A stretch of 64,000 nucleotides of DNA from Ruminococcus sp. (GTDB lineage: Bacteria > Bacillota > Clostridia > Oscillospirales > Ruminococcaceae): contig SVNM01000004.1 in assembly GCA_015066875.1 (NCBI GenBank), positions 1 to 64,000 on the forward strand, read 5' to 3'. The notes below the pieces were generated by a model. It did no database searches and was not told the DNA's origin. It saw only the letters and a list, made by a program, of their open reading frames with translations. Every line of letters begins with the position of its first letter. The first letter of the stretch is position 1. The translations under genes and the position numbers were made by a program. Below, in pieces: positions 22,026 through 40,200 of this stretch.

Positions 22026-22631
22026 ATGAGGAAAAAGCTTTCATTAATTGCGGTGGCTTCAGTTTTGGCGCTCTTTGCAACAGGTTGCGGAGCCGATGGC
22101 AACGGCTCTGAAGAAAGCAAAGCGATAAAGCTTCCCAAATCAGGAGCTACTCCCGTTCTTTCCCTCAGTAATGCCGAGGGAAGCCCCGGCGAAACGGTAG
22201 AGATCACATTGTCTGTAAAAGGCGCAGACAACAAGTGGTGCTCAAGCGGTGTACACATAATTTACGATGAAAATCTTGTATGCGTTCCTTCAGAAGCAGA
22301 TCCCGAAACACCCTCTTATAAAAAGGGACCCGCTGTTGAGGAAATGATGGCGTGCATAGCAAAGCTCTGGACGGATAAGCTTCTGCCTGAGCTTGAAAAA
22401 GATAACAAACATTCAGTATTCTTCTGCTCTGCGGGCGACGGAGACTGCGGTAAGGACGGAGATATCGCTACCTTTGAATTTGTAATTCCCGCAGACGCTC
22501 AGTCGGGCAAGGTTTATGATATCGAGTTTTTCTACCGCGAGGGAGATATGTTTGCAAACAGCGCTTCAGAACAGGATTTTCAGGATTACGCATTCAGTAA
22601 CTGGCAGAATGGCTCAATTAAAGTAAAATAA
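22026..22631 (+). CDS. Lipoprotein with a single cohesin-like domain
   Basis: Lipobox LFATGCG; LSLSNAEGSPGETVEITLSVKGADNKWCSSGVHIIYDENL resembles cohesin N-terminal strands. Confidence 0.6.
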   Translation: MRKKLSLIAVASVLALFATGCGADGNGSEESKAIKLPKSGATPVLSLSNAEGSPGETVEITLSVKGADNKWCSSGVHIIYDENLVCVPSEADPETPSYKKGPAVEEMMACIAKLWTDKLLPELEKDNKHSVFFCSAGDGDCGKDGDIATFEFVIPADAQSGKVYDIEFFYREGDMFANSASEQDFQDYAFSNWQNGSIKVK

Positions 22632-22667
22632 TAAGGAGTTTTGAAGATGAAAAGACGATTTACAGCG

Positions 22668-24803
22668 TTTGTCACAGCAGGTATCACGCTTCTGACAGCA
22701 GGTCTGTCGGCTTTTACCGCTGTGCCCGATGAGGTTTCGGCAAGTACCTCTGAGGATATAAAAATAATGGCAATAGGCGACTCTATTACCGATGGCTACG
22801 GTATAACAGGCTCATACAGAAAATATCTTGACTATGCTCTCACACAGAAGGGCTACTCTACAGATTTTGTTGGCATCAAGGACGAGTATGACGTTACCTT
22901 TACCTACAATGGCGAAAGCTATACCTATGATAACGCCAATGTGGGCTACAGCGGTTACGCTATTCAGGCTTACAACGGCAGAAGCGGTATTTACGAGACT
23001 CTTTTCGACGGCTGGAATGTTATTACCGATAAGGATCCCGATATTATTCTCCTTCAGATCGGTACTAACGACCTTCTCGACGCTCGTCTTGACCCCGTAA
23101 GCAATGCGGGAGATGTTACTGCAACTACAAGTGCTTATGAGCGTCTTGAAAACCTTGTTGATAAGATTCTTGAAAGTATGGACGATACGGATATGCTTTT
23201 CCTGGCTTCCGTTCCCTATATCGACGCTGAGGTTCGTTATGACTGGCTCAGCGCATACAGCTGGAATTACGGACTTGATACAAGCTCTGCAAATGCTGAG
23301 CTTACCGCTAAAGTAAATGAGTGCGTTAATATATATAATGCTAATTTACAGGCTATGATCACTAAAAAAAGGGTTGATGCAACTTTGGCAAATGAAGAAT
23401 CAAGAATACGCTTCTGCGATATCAACAGTGTTGTTGATATGAAAACTCAGCTTGCTGACGGAGTTCACCCCAACGAGTCAGGCTATGAAAGTATGGGACT
23501 TCACTGGGCAGAGCTTATCGGTACATATCTTGAAAACGGCAATATTACAACTCAGCCGTCAACTTCAACAACTACAACAACCTCTACTTCCACAACTACC
23601 ACAACCACAACCTCATCTGAGATAACAACAACTACAACTACCACAGAGGCTTTCAAGTTTGAAACTCTTGTGTATGACATCGACATCTCAGACAGAGAAG
23701 AAGGCTATGAGTATACTGTAAAGGCTCAGTTTGACGGAGCACCCTATGCAAGTCTTGGTGGCTGTATCGGATACGGCACAGGCGCTTCTGACTGGGTAAA
23801 TCTTGACTGGAGCGGTTCTCTTGACGCAGACGGAAACAGTGTAATCTCAATTCCAATCAGCGATATCCCCGTGAGCTTTGAAAGCGCACAGATTCAGGTA
23901 TGGTGGTCAAATACATGGGATAACGAGGCAGGCGCTTCAGTTGACCAGCCTGTAGAGCTTATCGGCTACACAGTTGAAAGAGACGATACAGATATAGTTA
24001 CAACAACTACTACGACCACTACCACAACTACAACCACCACAAGTACTACTACGACTACAACTACTACCGAACGCATAGCTCTTTTCCCGCTTATCGAGCC
24101 TCTTTCAGACAGCGTGGTTGCAGGTGAGGAATTTGAAATAAATATTCTCGCTTATATGAAGGACGAGACAACGGCTATCCCTGTTGAAAAGCTTATGCTC
24201 GGCTTTGTGAATGAAGGCGGGTTTGAAATCGTTTCCGTTTCTGAGACTTCACCCGCACTGGGCGGAGCTGATGTTGCATATGACGAAAAGACAGGAATCA
24301 TCACAATTATCTGCGATAAGGCTACACAGGCAGTAAAGCAGGAAATCATTGTTACAGTTACATTAAAGGCTCCGGAGGATATTCAGCCCGGTGAATATGA
24401 CATTTACCTTGACGAAGCTCTGTGCGGACTCATCACAACAGGCGGAGCCGAAAGCGATCAGCTTAATATTCTTCTTTCAAAGCAGACAATAACTGTTGTT
24501 GACGAAAGCGAATACAGAATTGCCGATCTTGTAAAGCTTACAGATTATCTCCTTGGCAGAGACAACAGCGGAATAACAGCTGAAAACGCTGAAAAGTACG
24601 ATATGAACAGCGATAAGACTCTTGATGTATGGGATCTTATTGACCTTAAGGTTTATCTTACAACACCGACAAGAGTGACAAGTAGTAATTCGACGTCAAC
24701 CAACATTTACCGTCCTTCATCCTCTTTAACCGATATCGATGAGGAGTCAGACATTGAAGCAACTGTCGTTGACTACTTTAAAAACAGCGCAACCCTTTCA
24801 TAA
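22668..24803 (+). CDS. Secreted SGNH/GDSL hydrolase with Thr-rich linkers, CBM-like domain, cohesin-like domain and type I dockerin
   Basis: IMAIGDSITDGYG (block I), DGVHPNESGYESMG (block V), poly-Thr linkers, YRIADLVKLTDYLLG...YDMNSDKTLDVWDLIDLKVYL dockerin repeats; start assigned within the 22641 ORF. Confidence 0.88.
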   Translation, partial: FVTAGITLLTAGLSAFTAVPDEVSASTSEDIKIMAIGDSITDGYGITGSYRKYLDYALTQKGYSTDFVGIKDEYDVTFTYNGESYTYDNANVGYSGYAIQAYNGRSGIYETLFDGWNVITDKDPDIILLQIGTNDLLDARLDPVSNAGDVTATTSAYERLENLVDKILESMDDTDMLFLASVPYIDAEVRYDWLSAYSWNYGLDTSSANAELTAKVNECVNIYNANLQAMITKKRVDATLANEESRIRFCDINSVVDMKTQLADGVHPNESGYESMGLHWAELIGTYLENGNITTQPSTSTTTTTSTSTTTTTTTSSEITTTTTTTEAFKFETLVYDIDISDREEGYEYTVKAQFDGAPYASLGGCIGYGTGASDWVNLDWSGSLDADGNSVISIPISDIPVSFESAQIQVWWSNTWDNEAGASVDQPVELIGYTVERDDTDIVTTTTTTTTTTTTTTSTTTTTTTTERIALFPLIEPLSDSVVAGEEFEINILAYMKDETTAIPVEKLMLGFVNEGGFEIVSVSETSPALGGADVAYDEKTGIITIICDKATQAVKQEIIVTVTLKAPEDIQPGEYDIYLDEALCGLITTGGAESDQLNILLSKQTITVVDESEYRIADLVKLTDYLLGRDNSGITAENAEKYDMNSDKTLDVWDLIDLKVYLTTPTRVTSSNSTSTNIYRPSSSLTDIDEESDIEATVVDYFKNSATLS

Positions 24804-33223: not shown

Positions 33224-33595
33224 TTATATGATTTGCTCAATAAAGAAACTTAAGTTGTCGTTTTTTAGTTTATTAACTTGTTCTATTTTCCCAAAGTCAT
33301 TATCTAGAAGACTGCCTTCCTGAAAACGAGTATTTTCAACAAATTTGCTTATAGCATCTTTGTCGGAAAAGCATATTGAATAAAAATAATAATTATCGAT
33401 TATTTGGCTGTTCAATTCATTTAAGTCATAATAATCACGTCCATTTTCAAGAGGATCTATGAAAAAATGACCTATCTCGGTTGCAATGCTTAGTCTATTA
33501 TTAAATACAAAATCACATTTTCCTTGCGCACTCCATTGATCAAAAATGCTCTTCAATTCATTGGGACTCGGTGATATTAATATAATTGCTCTCAT
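33224..33595 (-). CDS. Putative immunity protein for adjacent HINT-linked toxin
   Basis: 123-aa acidic soluble ORF starting 2 bp after the toxin ORF stop; low GC; no recognised family. Confidence 0.5.
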   Translation of the reverse strand: MRAIILISPSPNELKSIFDQWSAQGKCDFVFNNRLSIATEIGHFFIDPLENGRDYYDLNELNSQIIDNYYFYSICFSDKDAISKFVENTRFQEGSLLDNDFGKIEQVNKLKNDNLSFFIEQII

Positions 33596-33597
33596 AA

Positions 33598-34263
33598 TTA
33601 AATCCCCTTTATATACTCAAGCAAACTTTCTAAATCAGTAAAAACGTTATAACCGTTACGAGTCGCTTCTTTAAAAACAGACGGTTTAATGTCTGGAGCA
33701 TAACCAATCGCAATTTTACCAGAACTTTGTGAAGAAGCAATCAATTGTTTTGTTAATCCTTTAGCTCCTCCAGATTTTACTTGAATTATCATGTTATCCA
33801 GTACAATATCATAGTCAGTAAGAATTGTTCCATCTGCTCGATATGCAATTTGATTAACATCAATCACTTTACCTGGAACTGCATTATCTATTGCTGTTGC
33901 CACATCTCCTACAAGAGGATCGTTAGATGTAAACACTCTGCCACTATTATCATCTAATTCTGCACACATATTATGCACAAGCACAGAGCTCTCGCCGACA
34001 AAATAAGTATGGAAGTCCTGAACCTCAAAGTTATAAACCTTGATAGGCGATTCAAGAATCTCATGCTGAATTGCTTCAACAACTACATATTCGCCATTTG
34101 AAAGAACAAGGATGTCACCTGCACGAAGATTAATAGCAAGCGTCCAGCCAAACTTTGGTACATAGAACGGGTGGCTTGGAGTAGTAACGATTTCCTCGCC
34201 GTTTACTTTAAAGTTATTATACCATATCTGTTCACAGAAAGCAATAGCCGGAGCAGTTGACAA
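33598..34263 (-). CDS. Truncated HINT domain fused to C-terminal nuclease-like toxin domain
   Basis: TTPSHPFYVPKFGWTLAINLRAGD...VYNFEVQDFHTYFVGESSVLVHNMC is the C-terminal half of a pretoxin HINT domain; then DYDIVLDNMIIQVKSGG; only a TTG start and no N-terminal HINT motif. Confidence 0.7.
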   Translation of the reverse strand: MSTAPAIAFCEQIWYNNFKVNGEEIVTTPSHPFYVPKFGWTLAINLRAGDILVLSNGEYVVVEAIQHEILESPIKVYNFEVQDFHTYFVGESSVLVHNMCAELDDNSGRVFTSNDPLVGDVATAIDNAVPGKVIDVNQIAYRADGTILTDYDIVLDNMIIQVKSGGAKGLTKQLIASSQSSGKIAIGYAPDIKPSVFKEATRNGYNVFTDLESLLEYIKGI

Positions 34264-35151: not shown

Positions 35152-38100
35152 TTAGAAATATCTCATACAGAACAGCATAAAGTCTATCATTGTAACCGAG
35201 CCGTCGCCTGAGATATCTGCAGAATACCTGGATTCATCTGTCGGGAAACCATTTACTATATATCTTCTGAATATCAGCATATCGAAAACATCTATATAAT
35301 TATTTCCGTCGATATCTCCGATCAGATAGTCGAGAGCCACAGTTTCGGTGTAACCGCAGTCGATACAGGTTCGTGTCTGAGTATTCTGGTAGATATTGTT
35401 GCTTGTTTCAAAGACGTGTTCTGAAGCTTCAATATTACCGCAGTCATCACAAATGTATATATGCTTTTCTCTTGTTGAAGGTATACAGCTTGTGCAGTTA
35501 TGATTTTCTTCGGTGGTTGCATTGCATATACTGCAGGTGCCTGTATGCTTGCCGTTAAGGTTATCAGAGCAATTTGTGCTGATATGCTTATTGGTCTGAG
35601 TAATTAAGCATATATCACAGGTTCTTGAATGAGTACCATCGCCGTTATTTGTCCAGCTACTGTAGTTATGGAGATAAGTTTCAATGTGTCCGCAGTCTAT
35701 ACAGGTTCTTGAATGAGCACCGTTGCAGTTATCTGCCCAGTCGCCGTAGTTATGGTTGCCGTGCTCAGAAATACCGCATCCTGTGCAGAATCTCATATGA
35801 TTTCCGTCATAGTCAATCCAATCGGTGTATGTGTGATATCCCTTCTGAACACTTCTGCAATCAGTACATATTCTTTTGTGCTGACCATTGCCCAGGTCTT
35901 CCCACTTGCCGACGCAGATTGTTGGTCCTTCACGATATGCGCAGGCGGTACAGCTTCTTGTATACTGACCATTGTTCAGTTCCCATTGGCTGAAGCAATG
36001 AGTTTCAGTTTCCACATATCCACAGTCAGAGCAAATTTTTGAATGTGTGCCGTCGGCATTGCTGAACCATTCGCCGAAGGTATGGCTTTGGGGAATCATA
36101 TTGTAGCAATCAGCACAGACCAGCTGATGCTGGTGTTCTGATATGCTGAAGCAAACGGTATAATTATGTTCTGCCTTTGAAGACTTACTGCAGATTTCGC
36201 AGAATGCTGAATGAGAAGCATCTGAACTGTAATACCAATGCTCTGATTGATGTTTGCCTGATTCTGTATAATCACATATCCCGCAGTATCTGCTGTGGTT
36301 TTCGCCTTCGGTGCAGTTCCAGTCTGACATAGTATGAAGCTCAGGTAAAGAATAACCGCAGATATCGCAGATTTTATTATGATAAATATTGTTGTCAGAA
36401 GAAATCTGATTAAAAGAATGGTCTGATGAAACTTCAGCCTTGCAGTAGATACAGAAACCGGAGTGAGAAGAAATATCTGCAAGGTTATATTCCGAAATCA
36501 CGTGTTCTTCCTGTTCGGTAGCAGAGCACAGACTGCAGATTCTTTCATGTGCCTCATGGTTCAGATTGGCATACTCAGAGTAATCGTGGGGTTCGATTTC
36601 AGACTTGTTGCATACAGAGCAGACTTTTTTATGAACGAACTCATTGTTATTCTCGTATTTTTCATAGGTATGTTCTGCTCTTTCAGGCAAACCACACTCT
36701 CTGCAGACTCTGATGTGGTAACCGTATTCGGCAGATGTCCAGAAGCTGAATTTATGGATATGCTTCTGTGAATAGTCACAGTCCTTGCAGTTTACCATAT
36801 TCGTACCATCGGGCAGAACTGTGTAATCATTGAGGATATGAAGATTTGTTTCTGAATATCCGCAGGTATTGCAACGGCGGTTGTGTGAATGTTCATTGCA
36901 CTGTGTCCACTGGCTGAAATCATGCTTTTCAGTTTCGGGAGCACCGCATGTCGTACATACACGGATATGAATTGCACTTGTCAGCGCTTTCCAGTCCTTA
37001 AAGGTATGCGGATTTTCCAATGTGGCGTCACAGTGAGCGCAATACTGAATGTGACAGCCGTTTTTGTAATTGCAGGCGGGACTGAATTTGTGTTCAGCTG
37101 TTGATTCTGCATTACAGTCGGTACATTTTTGCGTATGGGTACCATCGCCGTTGTTGATAGTTTCAGAGTAGTTATGGGGAACTGTAAATTTGTCTCCGCA
37201 GACAGAACAGCTATTGGTATGGGTACCGTTGCGGTTATCGGTTACAGAGTCGATATCGTGGGGGAAAGAAATACTGTGTTTGCAATCCTGACAAATCTGT
37301 TGATGTTCATAGTCTGATACAGAATACAAATCACCGTAATTATGTTTTCCCTCCAATTCATAACCGCAGTCAGAGCAGACCGAGATGTGCTTGATATCAT
37401 TTTTAATGACAAAGGTATCAAAGCTGTGCTGGTTGTGCTGTGGAGCCTTACACAATTCGCAGTATCTTACATGACCAGAGTCTGAAGCCGGGCTCCAGCC
37501 ACTGTAAATATGCTTTGAGGGAACAGGAGCATACCCGCAATCGGCACATTTCTGTGAATGGGTGCCATTTCCGAGGTCGCACCATTCATCGTCATTGAAA
37601 GAATGCTCTGCATCTGTGCGTACACCGCAGTCAATACAGGTTAATGAATGAGAATCGCTGTTAATAAAAGTTCCGTTTCCGTAATTATGAGAAACATTGT
37701 CAAGCTTAATTGAGAATTCGCGGTAATAGTTATTTCCGCAGTAATAGGTATAGGTTATACTAACTACATCGGCAGAATCGGGCTGTAAGCGTCCGTTTAC
37801 AACAGATGCGCCTGAAATATGTGACATTCTTGACAGATCGAGTCCGAGCTTGTTTATTTCACTGCAGTTTACATCAGAAATAGTTGTAACGCAGTTAGGA
37901 GTATACAAGAGACTTAAAGCGTCATATCCTGTGACATCGATAAAAGGCAGATATGTTTCGTGGATATAAAGATTTACAAGCCCTGCAAGACCATCAATAT
38001 TAAGGCTTGTCAAAGGGTTTTGACCGCATCCGAGATTATACATTTCCTTGCAGGCACTAACGTCAAGGGAGCTTATCTTGTTACCGTTACAGTACAGCCA

Positions 38101-40200
38101 GGTCAGGCCTGTCAATCCACTGACATCAATTGATTCAAGCAGATTTTCTTTACATTCAATGGTTTTCATATTGCTGTTATTGCCCGGCTTAAGAGATGTG
38201 AGCTTATTATTATTGCAATAGACAGATTCAAGCTCAGTATTGTTTGAAAGGTCAAGAGCTGTAATCTGATTATCATTTGCGTTTAAGAATTTCAGCAAAG
38301 GAGCGTATTGAACATCAAGCGCTGTAAGCTTATTATTATTGCAATAAAGGTCGGAAAGCTTACTACAGCTTGTAATATCAAGCTGTGTGATTTCATTTAT
38401 CTCACATTTTATTGTTTCCAAAGCAGTACAGCCGTTCAGATTAAGTGTAGTTAAGGAGTTGTTGCTACACTCAAGCGTTTTCAGGGAAGCAAGACCACTT
38501 ACGTCAAGTGAAGTGAGCTTGCAGTTACTGCACACAAGCTGTTCCAATGATGAGAAGTATTTTATTCCTGTGAGGTCTGAAGTATTGCTACCTGCAACAT
38601 TGATTTCAGTTACCGCTGAAAGTTCTTGATAAGACAGAAGATTGTTGTTGTCAGCATCAAAACCCTTGACCTTGCTACGGAATTCAGTGTCAGGGAAATT
38701 TTCTTCACTGATGAGAACATCGTTGCTTGTCATGGCTTTGAGACATACATCTTTGCCCATTGTTTTCTGAGTACATTTCCAGCCATCTCTTTGATTTGTT
38801 GCCACATTGTAGTCTGCAATGAAAGAGCCTGTATCGGAATTAGTACCGTTGTCAACATATATAAGTGATTTTGAATCGGTTTCGCAGATATCGAGAACAA
38901 CAGAGAAGGTCTGATTTCCCTCCAGTGCAACAGCAGAGGGCAGTTCAATGGTATGATAGCCTTTATAGGCGATGTTGCCTTCAAAGACACTTTTTAATGT
39001 ACCGTTTGCGGGATCATCTGATGAAACATCGGTATATATGCTTATTCTGTAGTCGGTGTCGTTTTCGGCAGTATAAAATCCCACGCATTTAAGAGTGCTT
39101 TTACTGTCGGCGGTAAAAATATTTGCTACGCTTATGCCATATCCGCTCTTTTCAGGAGCAACAGACGATGTGCGTAAACTGTCGTATTGATAGATTTTGT
39201 CATAATAATCTGCGGGCGCCATTACAAAGGAACGACATTCAGCAGTTAAAGAAGGCTCTTCATAAGATATATAGAAGTATCCGTCATCTTTTGAAGAGGT
39301 GCCACCGCTGTTCTTGCAAAGCCACGCTCCGTCTTTTGAGGGGGTTCCGCCGTTAACGAAATTGAATCTGGAATAATTATCATCCCAGCCCACGATGGCA
39401 ATAGCGTGTTCTGCTACGTCGGGTGAATGTGTTTTATTGTAATAATAGCTTGTTTCCCAGATAAACGGGTTAAAAGTGTATCCGGCGTCAGATGTATAAC
39501 TTGCATAAAGAGCACTTTTGGTCATTATAGCTTCTTTTACGCTTTGCTGATCTTCAAAGGAATAGGATTCACTGAACTGAAGGCGTGCATTATACTGATA
39601 ACGCTTGCTTTCATCAAAGACAGGCCTTGTAACGACATCGGGCGCATAATCATTAAAAACAGGTCCGTTGCCTCTTGCCAGAGCATTTAAAGCCAGAGCA
39701 TCATAACCGCCCGATTCATAACACTCCACGCCTTTATAGATGTTTGCGTCGTATTCATTATACAGGGGAGAAGATGCATCGGTAATATCCTGTCCTTTTG
39801 TATACCAGATGAGATGGGATTCAGCAAAGTTGACATTATTATCTGCGATGCCCTTCATAATCATACTTGATTCACATGAAGCAATGACTGCATGAGCCCA
39901 GCAGGTTTTTGTACTTCCCTGGGAAACTACATTTGAAGTATAGCCCATATCAACCATACTGTATTTTGAAGGAAGACACCCGCCTCGCGCAGAAGAGGAG
40001 ACAAGGCTGTAATCATAAACATTGCTGTTGATTATCTGAGAGGGCGATGCTTCAGGCTGAGAAAACGGTTCAGCGTCGGTATTCTGAGCATAAACGCAAT
40101 TAACTGAGGCACTGATGCCTGTTATATATACTGCAAGAAGTGCCGGGAAAAAACGCGCAAAAAATTTATTGTTTCGTTTCATAAATATGTCACGCATCAA
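35152..40200 (-). CDS. Secreted C1A-like cysteine protease with LRRs, tandem CxxC/His repeats and C-terminal dockerin
   Basis: Signal peptide; VVSQGSTKTCWAHAVIASCES; HAIAIVGWDDNYSRFNF; LRRs; 28 CxxC repeats; LIGDIDGNNYIDVFDMLIFRRYI...ADISGDGSVTMIDFMLFCMRYF dockerin. ATG at 40182 likely start. Confidence 0.88.
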   Translation of the reverse strand: MMRDIFMKRNNKFFARFFPALLAVYITGISASVNCVYAQNTDAEPFSQPEASPSQIINSNVYDYSLVSSSARGGCLPSKYSMVDMGYTSNVVSQGSTKTCWAHAVIASCESSMIMKGIADNNVNFAESHLIWYTKGQDITDASSPLYNEYDANIYKGVECYESGGYDALALNALARGNGPVFNDYAPDVVTRPVFDESKRYQYNARLQFSESYSFEDQQSVKEAIMTKSALYASYTSDAGYTFNPFIWETSYYYNKTHSPDVAEHAIAIVGWDDNYSRFNFVNGGTPSKDGAWLCKNSGGTSSKDDGYFYISYEEPSLTAECRSFVMAPADYYDKIYQYDSLRTSSVAPEKSGYGISVANIFTADSKSTLKCVGFYTAENDTDYRISIYTDVSSDDPANGTLKSVFEGNIAYKGYHTIELPSAVALEGNQTFSVVLDICETDSKSLIYVDNGTNSDTGSFIADYNVATNQRDGWKCTQKTMGKDVCLKAMTSNDVLISEENFPDTEFRSKVKGFDADNNNLLSYQELSAVTEINVAGSNTSDLTGIKYFSSLEQLVCSNCKLTSLDVSGLASLKTLECSNNSLTTLNLNGCTALETIKCEINEITQLDITSCSKLSDLYCNNNKLTALDVQYAPLLKFLNANDNQITALDLSNNTELESVYCNNNKLTSLKPGNNSNMKTIECKENLLESIDVSGLTGLTWLYCNGNKISSLDVSACKEMYNLGCGQNPLTSLNIDGLAGLVNLYIHETYLPFIDVTGYDALSLLYTPNCVTTISDVNCSEINKLGLDLSRMSHISGASVVNGRLQPDSADVVSITYTYYCGNNYYREFSIKLDNVSHNYGNGTFINSDSHSLTCIDCGVRTDAEHSFNDDEWCDLGNGTHSQKCADCGYAPVPSKHIYSGWSPASDSGHVRYCELCKAPQHNQHSFDTFVIKNDIKHISVCSDCGYELEGKHNYGDLYSVSDYEHQQICQDCKHSISFPHDIDSVTDNRNGTHTNSCSVCGDKFTVPHNYSETINNGDGTHTQKCTDCNAESTAEHKFSPACNYKNGCHIQYCAHCDATLENPHTFKDWKALTSAIHIRVCTTCGAPETEKHDFSQWTQCNEHSHNRRCNTCGYSETNLHILNDYTVLPDGTNMVNCKDCDYSQKHIHKFSFWTSAEYGYHIRVCRECGLPERAEHTYEKYENNNEFVHKKVCSVCNKSEIEPHDYSEYANLNHEAHERICSLCSATEQEEHVISEYNLADISSHSGFCIYCKAEVSSDHSFNQISSDNNIYHNKICDICGYSLPELHTMSDWNCTEGENHSRYCGICDYTESGKHQSEHWYYSSDASHSAFCEICSKSSKAEHNYTVCFSISEHQHQLVCADCYNMIPQSHTFGEWFSNADGTHSKICSDCGYVETETHCFSQWELNNGQYTRSCTACAYREGPTICVGKWEDLGNGQHKRICTDCRSVQKGYHTYTDWIDYDGNHMRFCTGCGISEHGNHNYGDWADNCNGAHSRTCIDCGHIETYLHNYSSWTNNGDGTHSRTCDICLITQTNKHISTNCSDNLNGKHTGTCSICNATTEENHNCTSCIPSTREKHIYICDDCGNIEASEHVFETSNNIYQNTQTRTCIDCGYTETVALDYLIGDIDGNNYIDVFDMLIFRRYIVNGFPTDESRYSADISGDGSVTMIDFMLFCMRYF
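35335..37690 (-). repeat. Region encoding 28 tandem CxxC/His repeats (about 27-30 aa each)
   Basis: Pattern such as H-(N/T)YSxWTxNxDGTHSRTCxDCGxxE counted in the translation. Confidence 0.88.

Follow-up and report, generated by a model that had tools for sequence, protein, structure and literature searches.

The protein encoded on the minus strand at positions 35152-40182 of the window, the 64,000-nucleotide stretch of Ruminococcus sp. DNA analysed here, combines a C1A cysteine peptidase with an array of 28 tandem CxxC units and a C-terminal dockerin. The best explanation as a whole, held at a probability of about 0.62, is a cohesin-docked, Cwp84-like protease that is kept off the wall by a zinc-joined spacer of 28 units. 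This reading is built on the architecture itself, its recurrence across genera, the intact catalytic and calcium-binding residues, and the co-variation of the ligand residues of the array. In the mechanism proposed, a secreted Cwp84-like protease with a lectin-like domain beside its active site would be plugged into a cell-surface cohesin by its dockerin, while the leucine-rich repeats would bind a partner or the substrate. A rod of three-stranded beta units would keep the protease away from the wall, with structural zinc joining neighbours through His14 of unit n and His1, Cys18 and Cys21 of unit n+1.

Domain architecture, peptidase and dockerin

The open reading frame (1676 aa) starts with an ATG at 40182, a TTG at 40200 being equally open, and the multidomain anatomy proposed for it in the initial annotation is borne out, with peptidase, beta-rich domain, leucine-rich repeats, CxxC repeats and dockerin all matched by domain or repeat analysis. 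From the N-terminus, a signal peptide and propeptide region start (aa 1-40, 40063-40182, MKRNNKFFARFFPALLAVYITGISAS..., read directly from the letters) is signal peptide-like, and the product is taken to be of the secreted type. It is followed by a C1A (papain-like) peptidase (aa ~60-318, 39229-40005), by the beta-rich domain, which is PF18560 Lectin_like (aa 330-485, 38728-39195; E = 5.7e-27), and by leucine-rich repeats of the InlJ type (aa 494-776, 37855-38703; PF12799, 3.5e-15). The 28 units (aa 832-1616, 35335-37689) and a type I dockerin (aa 1620-1676, 35155-35325) complete the protein, all of these features lying on the minus strand. A short minus-strand ORF at 33598-34263 has a Pretoxin HINT/intein-like domain (PF07591, 4.3e-18) and adjoins a small ORF at 33224-33595; the pair resembles the terminal part of a polymorphic-type toxin gene and a neighbouring gene.

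The peptidase matches PF00112 above the Pfam cut-off (E = 2.8e-9 for the excised domain) and the Cwp84 structures 4d59 and 4ci7 with E ~ 2e-25, and the Cwp84-type pairing is present, the Lectin_like domain following directly after the C1A domain. The initial annotation had staked its reading on the catalytic residues, and all of them are there: Q88, C94, H259 and N291 are invariant across the family alignment and stand in the papain order of Gln, Cys, His and Asn. The one departure is in the NS(W/Y)G motif, which reads NSGG, with Gly in place of Trp or Tyr after N-S; this form is unique to the window protein among the family members compared. Because of this replacement the activity of the peptidase may be reduced, and proteolysis, which the catalytic residues suggest, is subject to some doubt as to its full extent. 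That the domain is a dead binding module is nevertheless considered unlikely: the NSGG motif, confined to this protein, would speak for it, but all four of Gln, Cys, His and Asn are kept, and in the alignment Cwp84, which is active, itself carries Ser at the position of papain's Asn in the motif. The substrate would be an extracellular protein, whether of the cell itself, a competitor, the food or the host, with possible parallels in the S-layer processing of Cwp84 and the antibody cleavage of IgA protease.

The dockerin matches PF00404 (Dockerin_1) at E = 2.3e-9 and 37.8 bits, against a cut-off of 22.9, with two EF-hand-like calcium loops. Degenerate calcium-binding residues had likewise been named in advance as a point of refutation, and both loops are present. 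The first is canonical (D-x-D-x-N-x-Y-x-D-xx-D); the second (D-x-S-x-D-x-S-x-T-xx-D) carries Ser at position 3, a place taken by Asn in most of the 24 further dockerin proteins of the genome that were compared. The genome, from an assembly that is 88% complete, yields 54 dockerin matches and at least three cohesin-bearing proteins. One of these, encoded on the plus strand of the window at 22026-22631 (PF00963, 1.4e-7), is a single-cohesin lipoprotein with an LFATGC lipobox by sequence and a candidate surface partner; the other two (C70 and C79), by reading of their lipoboxes and tails, are one lipoprotein-like and one with a sortase-like tail. Since all three are small and match a cohesin only once, it is plausible that they anchor dockerin proteins singly at the surface, though larger scaffoldins could be missing from the assembly, and the docking of this dockerin on a cell-surface cohesin is a predicted pairing. 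Directly downstream of the cohesin lipoprotein lies a GDSL-lipase/Cbm74 protein (22641-24803) whose C-terminal part has a dockerin-like stretch. Pectate lyase, pectinesterase, rhamnogalacturonan lyase, deacetylase, GDSL and LRR proteins are among the other dockerin proteins of the genome.

The repeat array and its relatives

The units follow the pattern H1-x12-H14-x3-C18-x2-C21 with a period of 28 residues, 23 of the 27 spacings being exactly 28 and the others 27, 29 or 30. Both cysteines are kept in 28/28 units and His14 in 25/28; His1 stands at the exact position in 24/28, or in 27/28 when shifts of 1-2 residues are allowed. The count of 28 repeats, each with a CxxC, thus agrees with the initial annotation, which had assigned one conserved histidine to each unit where there are two; its figure of about 56 cysteines fits the CxxC pairs, the whole array region holding 68. 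Mean identity between the window units is 24.5%, and TRF finds no tandem repetition at the DNA level. Chance and expansion of a DNA repeat can both be rejected on these grounds, the regularity being far beyond chance. No model of Pfam or NCBIfam matches the window array.

Searched with the window's own repeats, the window genome contains them in this gene only, and none of the seven further members of the genus that were sampled has an array at E <= 1e-5. Arrays of this kind occur in 20/398 genomes of the taxonomic family. A contig scan with the peptidase/lectin alignment gave 80 loci, among which L044, L045, L046 and L047 have repeats downstream of C1A and Lectin_like domains, as does the genome G310. 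In three of these five other genomes the layout reaches a dockerin: directly after the repeats in L044 (a R. flavefaciens MAG) and L046, and in G310 (L038, G310:C26) past one in-frame TAG, ~6.6 kb in, that separates the repeats from the last unit with the dockerin and could reflect either a nonsense change or a fault of assembly. In L045 and L047 (genome G309) the array runs off the contig. As it is found in five other genomes, the succession of C1A, Lectin_like and repeats represents a real family. Many other C1A-Lectin_like proteins have dockerin-like, cell-wall or transmembrane tails and are without His/CxxC repeats, and the window genome itself has a C1A-lectin-dockerin paralog that likewise is without them (C24).

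A profile search with the repeats of the family, such as had been suggested at the outset, found related clostridial arrays, the L129-type ones among others (E = 1.3e-11). When their profile is aligned with that of these intermediate clostridial modules in hhalign, the window-family repeats match with a probability of 97.4% (E = 1.5e-11) and the ligands in register, and these modules in turn match the IgA protease of Thomasclavelia ramosa (9qa6) at E = 3.4e-30. As 9qa6 was not listed in the direct search with window-family profiles, the homology to the 'ZBD' modules of the IgA protease is transitive, the comparison of sequences pointing to it by way of the intermediate arrays. Among the other arrays, the repeats of L126 exceed the Pfam cut-off for zf-Sec23_Sec24, and L039 (G317:C14) encodes a protein of 1885 aa in which ~27 CxxC motifs are spread over units of both long and short types, good material for the comparison of ligands. 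In L130 and L040, from other Clostridia, the His/CxxC repeats come after a cohesin-like domain, by reading of the sequence.

The ZBD1 of the IgA protease was modelled as an elongated body of ~110 Å for 129 residues, and its authors propose a role as spacer or hinge, with protein binding as an alternative (PMC12237041). Scaled from that model, the 785 residues of the window array would span at most ~65-70 nm; the array would be rod-shaped. It could instead serve chiefly as a surface for ligand binding or adhesion, or as a store of zinc. The strong divergence of the units outside the ligands (24.5% identity), as would be expected with a separate partner for every face, and the amount of zinc that 25 sites would hold lend this some colour, but unit numbers among the homologs range from about 13 to 28, and the units of L046 are near-identical, which is typical of a spacer tuned in length. 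With the spacer or hinge proposed for the IgA protease also on the other side, if with protein binding as its alternative, such a role is regarded as improbable, and that of a spacer is preferred.

Predicted fold and metal sites of the array

AF2 predicts a three-stranded meander for each unit, with strands at about residues 3-8, 13-18 and 24-28 and the CxxC at a hairpin turn (pLDDT 83.5 for four units and 94.0 for two). This secondary structure agrees with the three-stranded up-and-down sheet per unit of the ZBD-type repeat; ZBD1 and ZBD2 of the IgA protease were modelled as such subdomains, with 2His-2Cys sites, putatively for zinc, where one subdomain meets the next (PMC12237041). Neither model has a significant Foldseek match in the PDB. 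The C-terminal segment of XPA (8ebt_K), in which an HxH, 16 residues and a CxxC are in register with His1 and CxxC, superimposes at 1.1 Å over 32 residues with probability 1.00, the E-values of 0.43 and 0.52 not being significant; XPA is a eukaryotic DNA-repair protein with one such unit only, and the likeness is a suggestive analogy.

Three possible groupings of metal ligands were weighed. Read from the strand positions in the predicted meander, His1 would adjoin the CxxC within the same unit, with His14 close to His1 of the next. These positions and the co-variation of the ligands favour a site between units, composed of His14 of one unit with His1, Cys18 and Cys21 of the following one. In the window, 25/27 of the predicted inter-repeat sites are complete. 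At units 21/22, one such site is without both its His14 and its His1; the only other internal loss of His14 is in unit 11, and unit 12 then has an HxH, i.e. a histidine two residues before His1. In 26 other clostridial loci, which are related to each other and were parsed with a simple pattern script, an HxH is found in 32/84 units whose predecessor is without His14 and in 0/60 whose predecessor has it (p = 1.6e-9). With distinct units only the figures are 29/81 and 0/59 (p = 1.4e-8), and counted by locus 14 and 0. The effect is carried by these other arrays, the corresponding figures within the C1A family alone, 1/13 and 1/85, not differing significantly.

The ends of the arrays point the same way. 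In 4/4 arrays that reach a dockerin (the window, L044, L046 and G310) the last unit, which has no successor, is without His14 and carries Q, Q, Y or R there, while His1 and the CxxC are kept; as they are possibly inherited from one ancestor, these four losses do not count as four independent events. Among other arrays His14 is present in 6/27 last units against 55/80 other units (p = 3e-5). The first window unit has no obvious fourth ligand. A cysteine in a YxCG motif stands 17 residues before the first His1 (aa 815 in the window protein), at the same distance in L044, L045 and L046; it occurs in most family members, not in G310, and may supply the ligand that the first site lacks.

A local HCCH knuckle (His14-x3-Cys18-x2-Cys21-x7-His29), which would make of the repeats independent beads on a string, draws on the fact that no other stretch of the unit is as rigid in its spacing as H-x3-C-x2-C-x7-H: the distance from Cys18 to the next His1 is 11 residues in 87/92 cases, and most length changes are located between His1 and His14. 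It would account for the two histidines missing together at units 21/22 and for last units being without His14. By contrast, it gives no reason for the retention of the first His1 and of the terminal CxxC, or for the HxH that appears after units missing His14, and it places His14 and Cys18, four residues apart on the same predicted strand (13-18), too far from each other for one ion. This grouping was set aside because of the strand positions and the HxH pattern, and is judged decidedly unlikely. Much the same low standing is given to disulfides, within the CxxC or between repeats, as the stiffening of the stalk, with the histidines structural or pH-sensing. Extracellular cysteine-rich repeats elsewhere are often disulfide-bonded, and the CxxC stays even in last units without His14; against this, two histidines are conserved alongside the cysteine pair and co-vary with it as ligands would, and the relatives of the organism are anaerobes. 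In the structures and models of the homologous IgA protease, furthermore, no disulfides were seen, and the enzyme needs a reducing agent for monodispersity (PMC12237041). Thioester repeats are rejected, no supporting feature having been found, and so is a classical C2H2 zinc finger (CxxC-x12-H-x3-H with a helix): the window-family profile matches C2H2 arrays at E = 3e-5, with period 28 and CxxC in agreement, but the His spacing differs and AF2 predicts no helix. Among the roles offered in the initial annotation for the array, metal binding and a stalk are thus supported, disulfides are disfavoured by comparison, and thioesters are without support.

The metal bound would be zinc, and the array units are probably held together by it. 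A bolder extension is that ~25 zinc-stapled joints weld the array into a rod, so that repeat number and available zinc set the reach and stiffness of the protease; this is a doubtful proposition, under which the withdrawal of zinc would soften or release the docked protease.

Comparison with known systems and significance

Cwp84 of Clostridioides difficile has the same pair of peptidase and Lectin_like domain (E ~ 2e-25), but is attached by cell-wall-binding repeats, matures the S-layer, and is without leucine-rich repeats, repeat array or dockerin (PMC4089489). The leucine-rich repeats, with their cysteine-containing type, are common to internalin J (3bz5; E = 1.6e-39), the likeness being confined to that domain. 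With the IgA protease, a member of M64, the window protein would share the predicted three-stranded meanders and putative 2His-2Cys sites between units, along with repeats placed C-terminal to a secreted protease and a proposed spacer role; the former is a metalloprotease with two modules of 2-3 units and a sortase anchor, the latter a C1A protease with 28 units and a dockerin.

A non-glycan role for the cohesin/dockerin system, as first suggested from this protein, is right in direction and not new, because peptidases that carry a dockerin, some of them papain-like, had been described before. In R. flavefaciens FD-1, 16 peptidase modules and 28 LRR modules are dockerin-borne (PMC2930009), and 71 dockerin-associated peptidases have been reported in B. 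cellulosolvens (PMC5590126). The papain-like cysteine peptidase RflaF_05439 of R. flavefaciens binds the cell-surface cohesin of ScaE (PMC3573020, PMC5301203) and, like the window protein as predicted here, is a cysteine peptidase attached to the surface through a dockerin; it has an NlpC/P60-like module and an X-dockerin, and lectin-like domain, leucine-rich repeats and His/CxxC array are not described there. When the literature was searched for tandem CxxC repeats combined with a dockerin, none came up. Each part of the protein has known relatives; what appears to be undescribed is a docked protease that carries a long zinc-repeat arm.

Many gut Clostridia have the repeat, but neither Pfam nor NCBIfam has a model for it. 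The authors of the IgA protease study regard the ZBDs as a possible novel metal-binding fold, with experimental validation pending (PMC12237041). The compensatory pattern of histidines described here supports that fold by comparison and opens it to a direct mutational test, for which the 28-unit array offers a regular system. One conserved protein type unites Cwp84-like proteases, cohesin docking and the zinc-binding modules of IgA protease.
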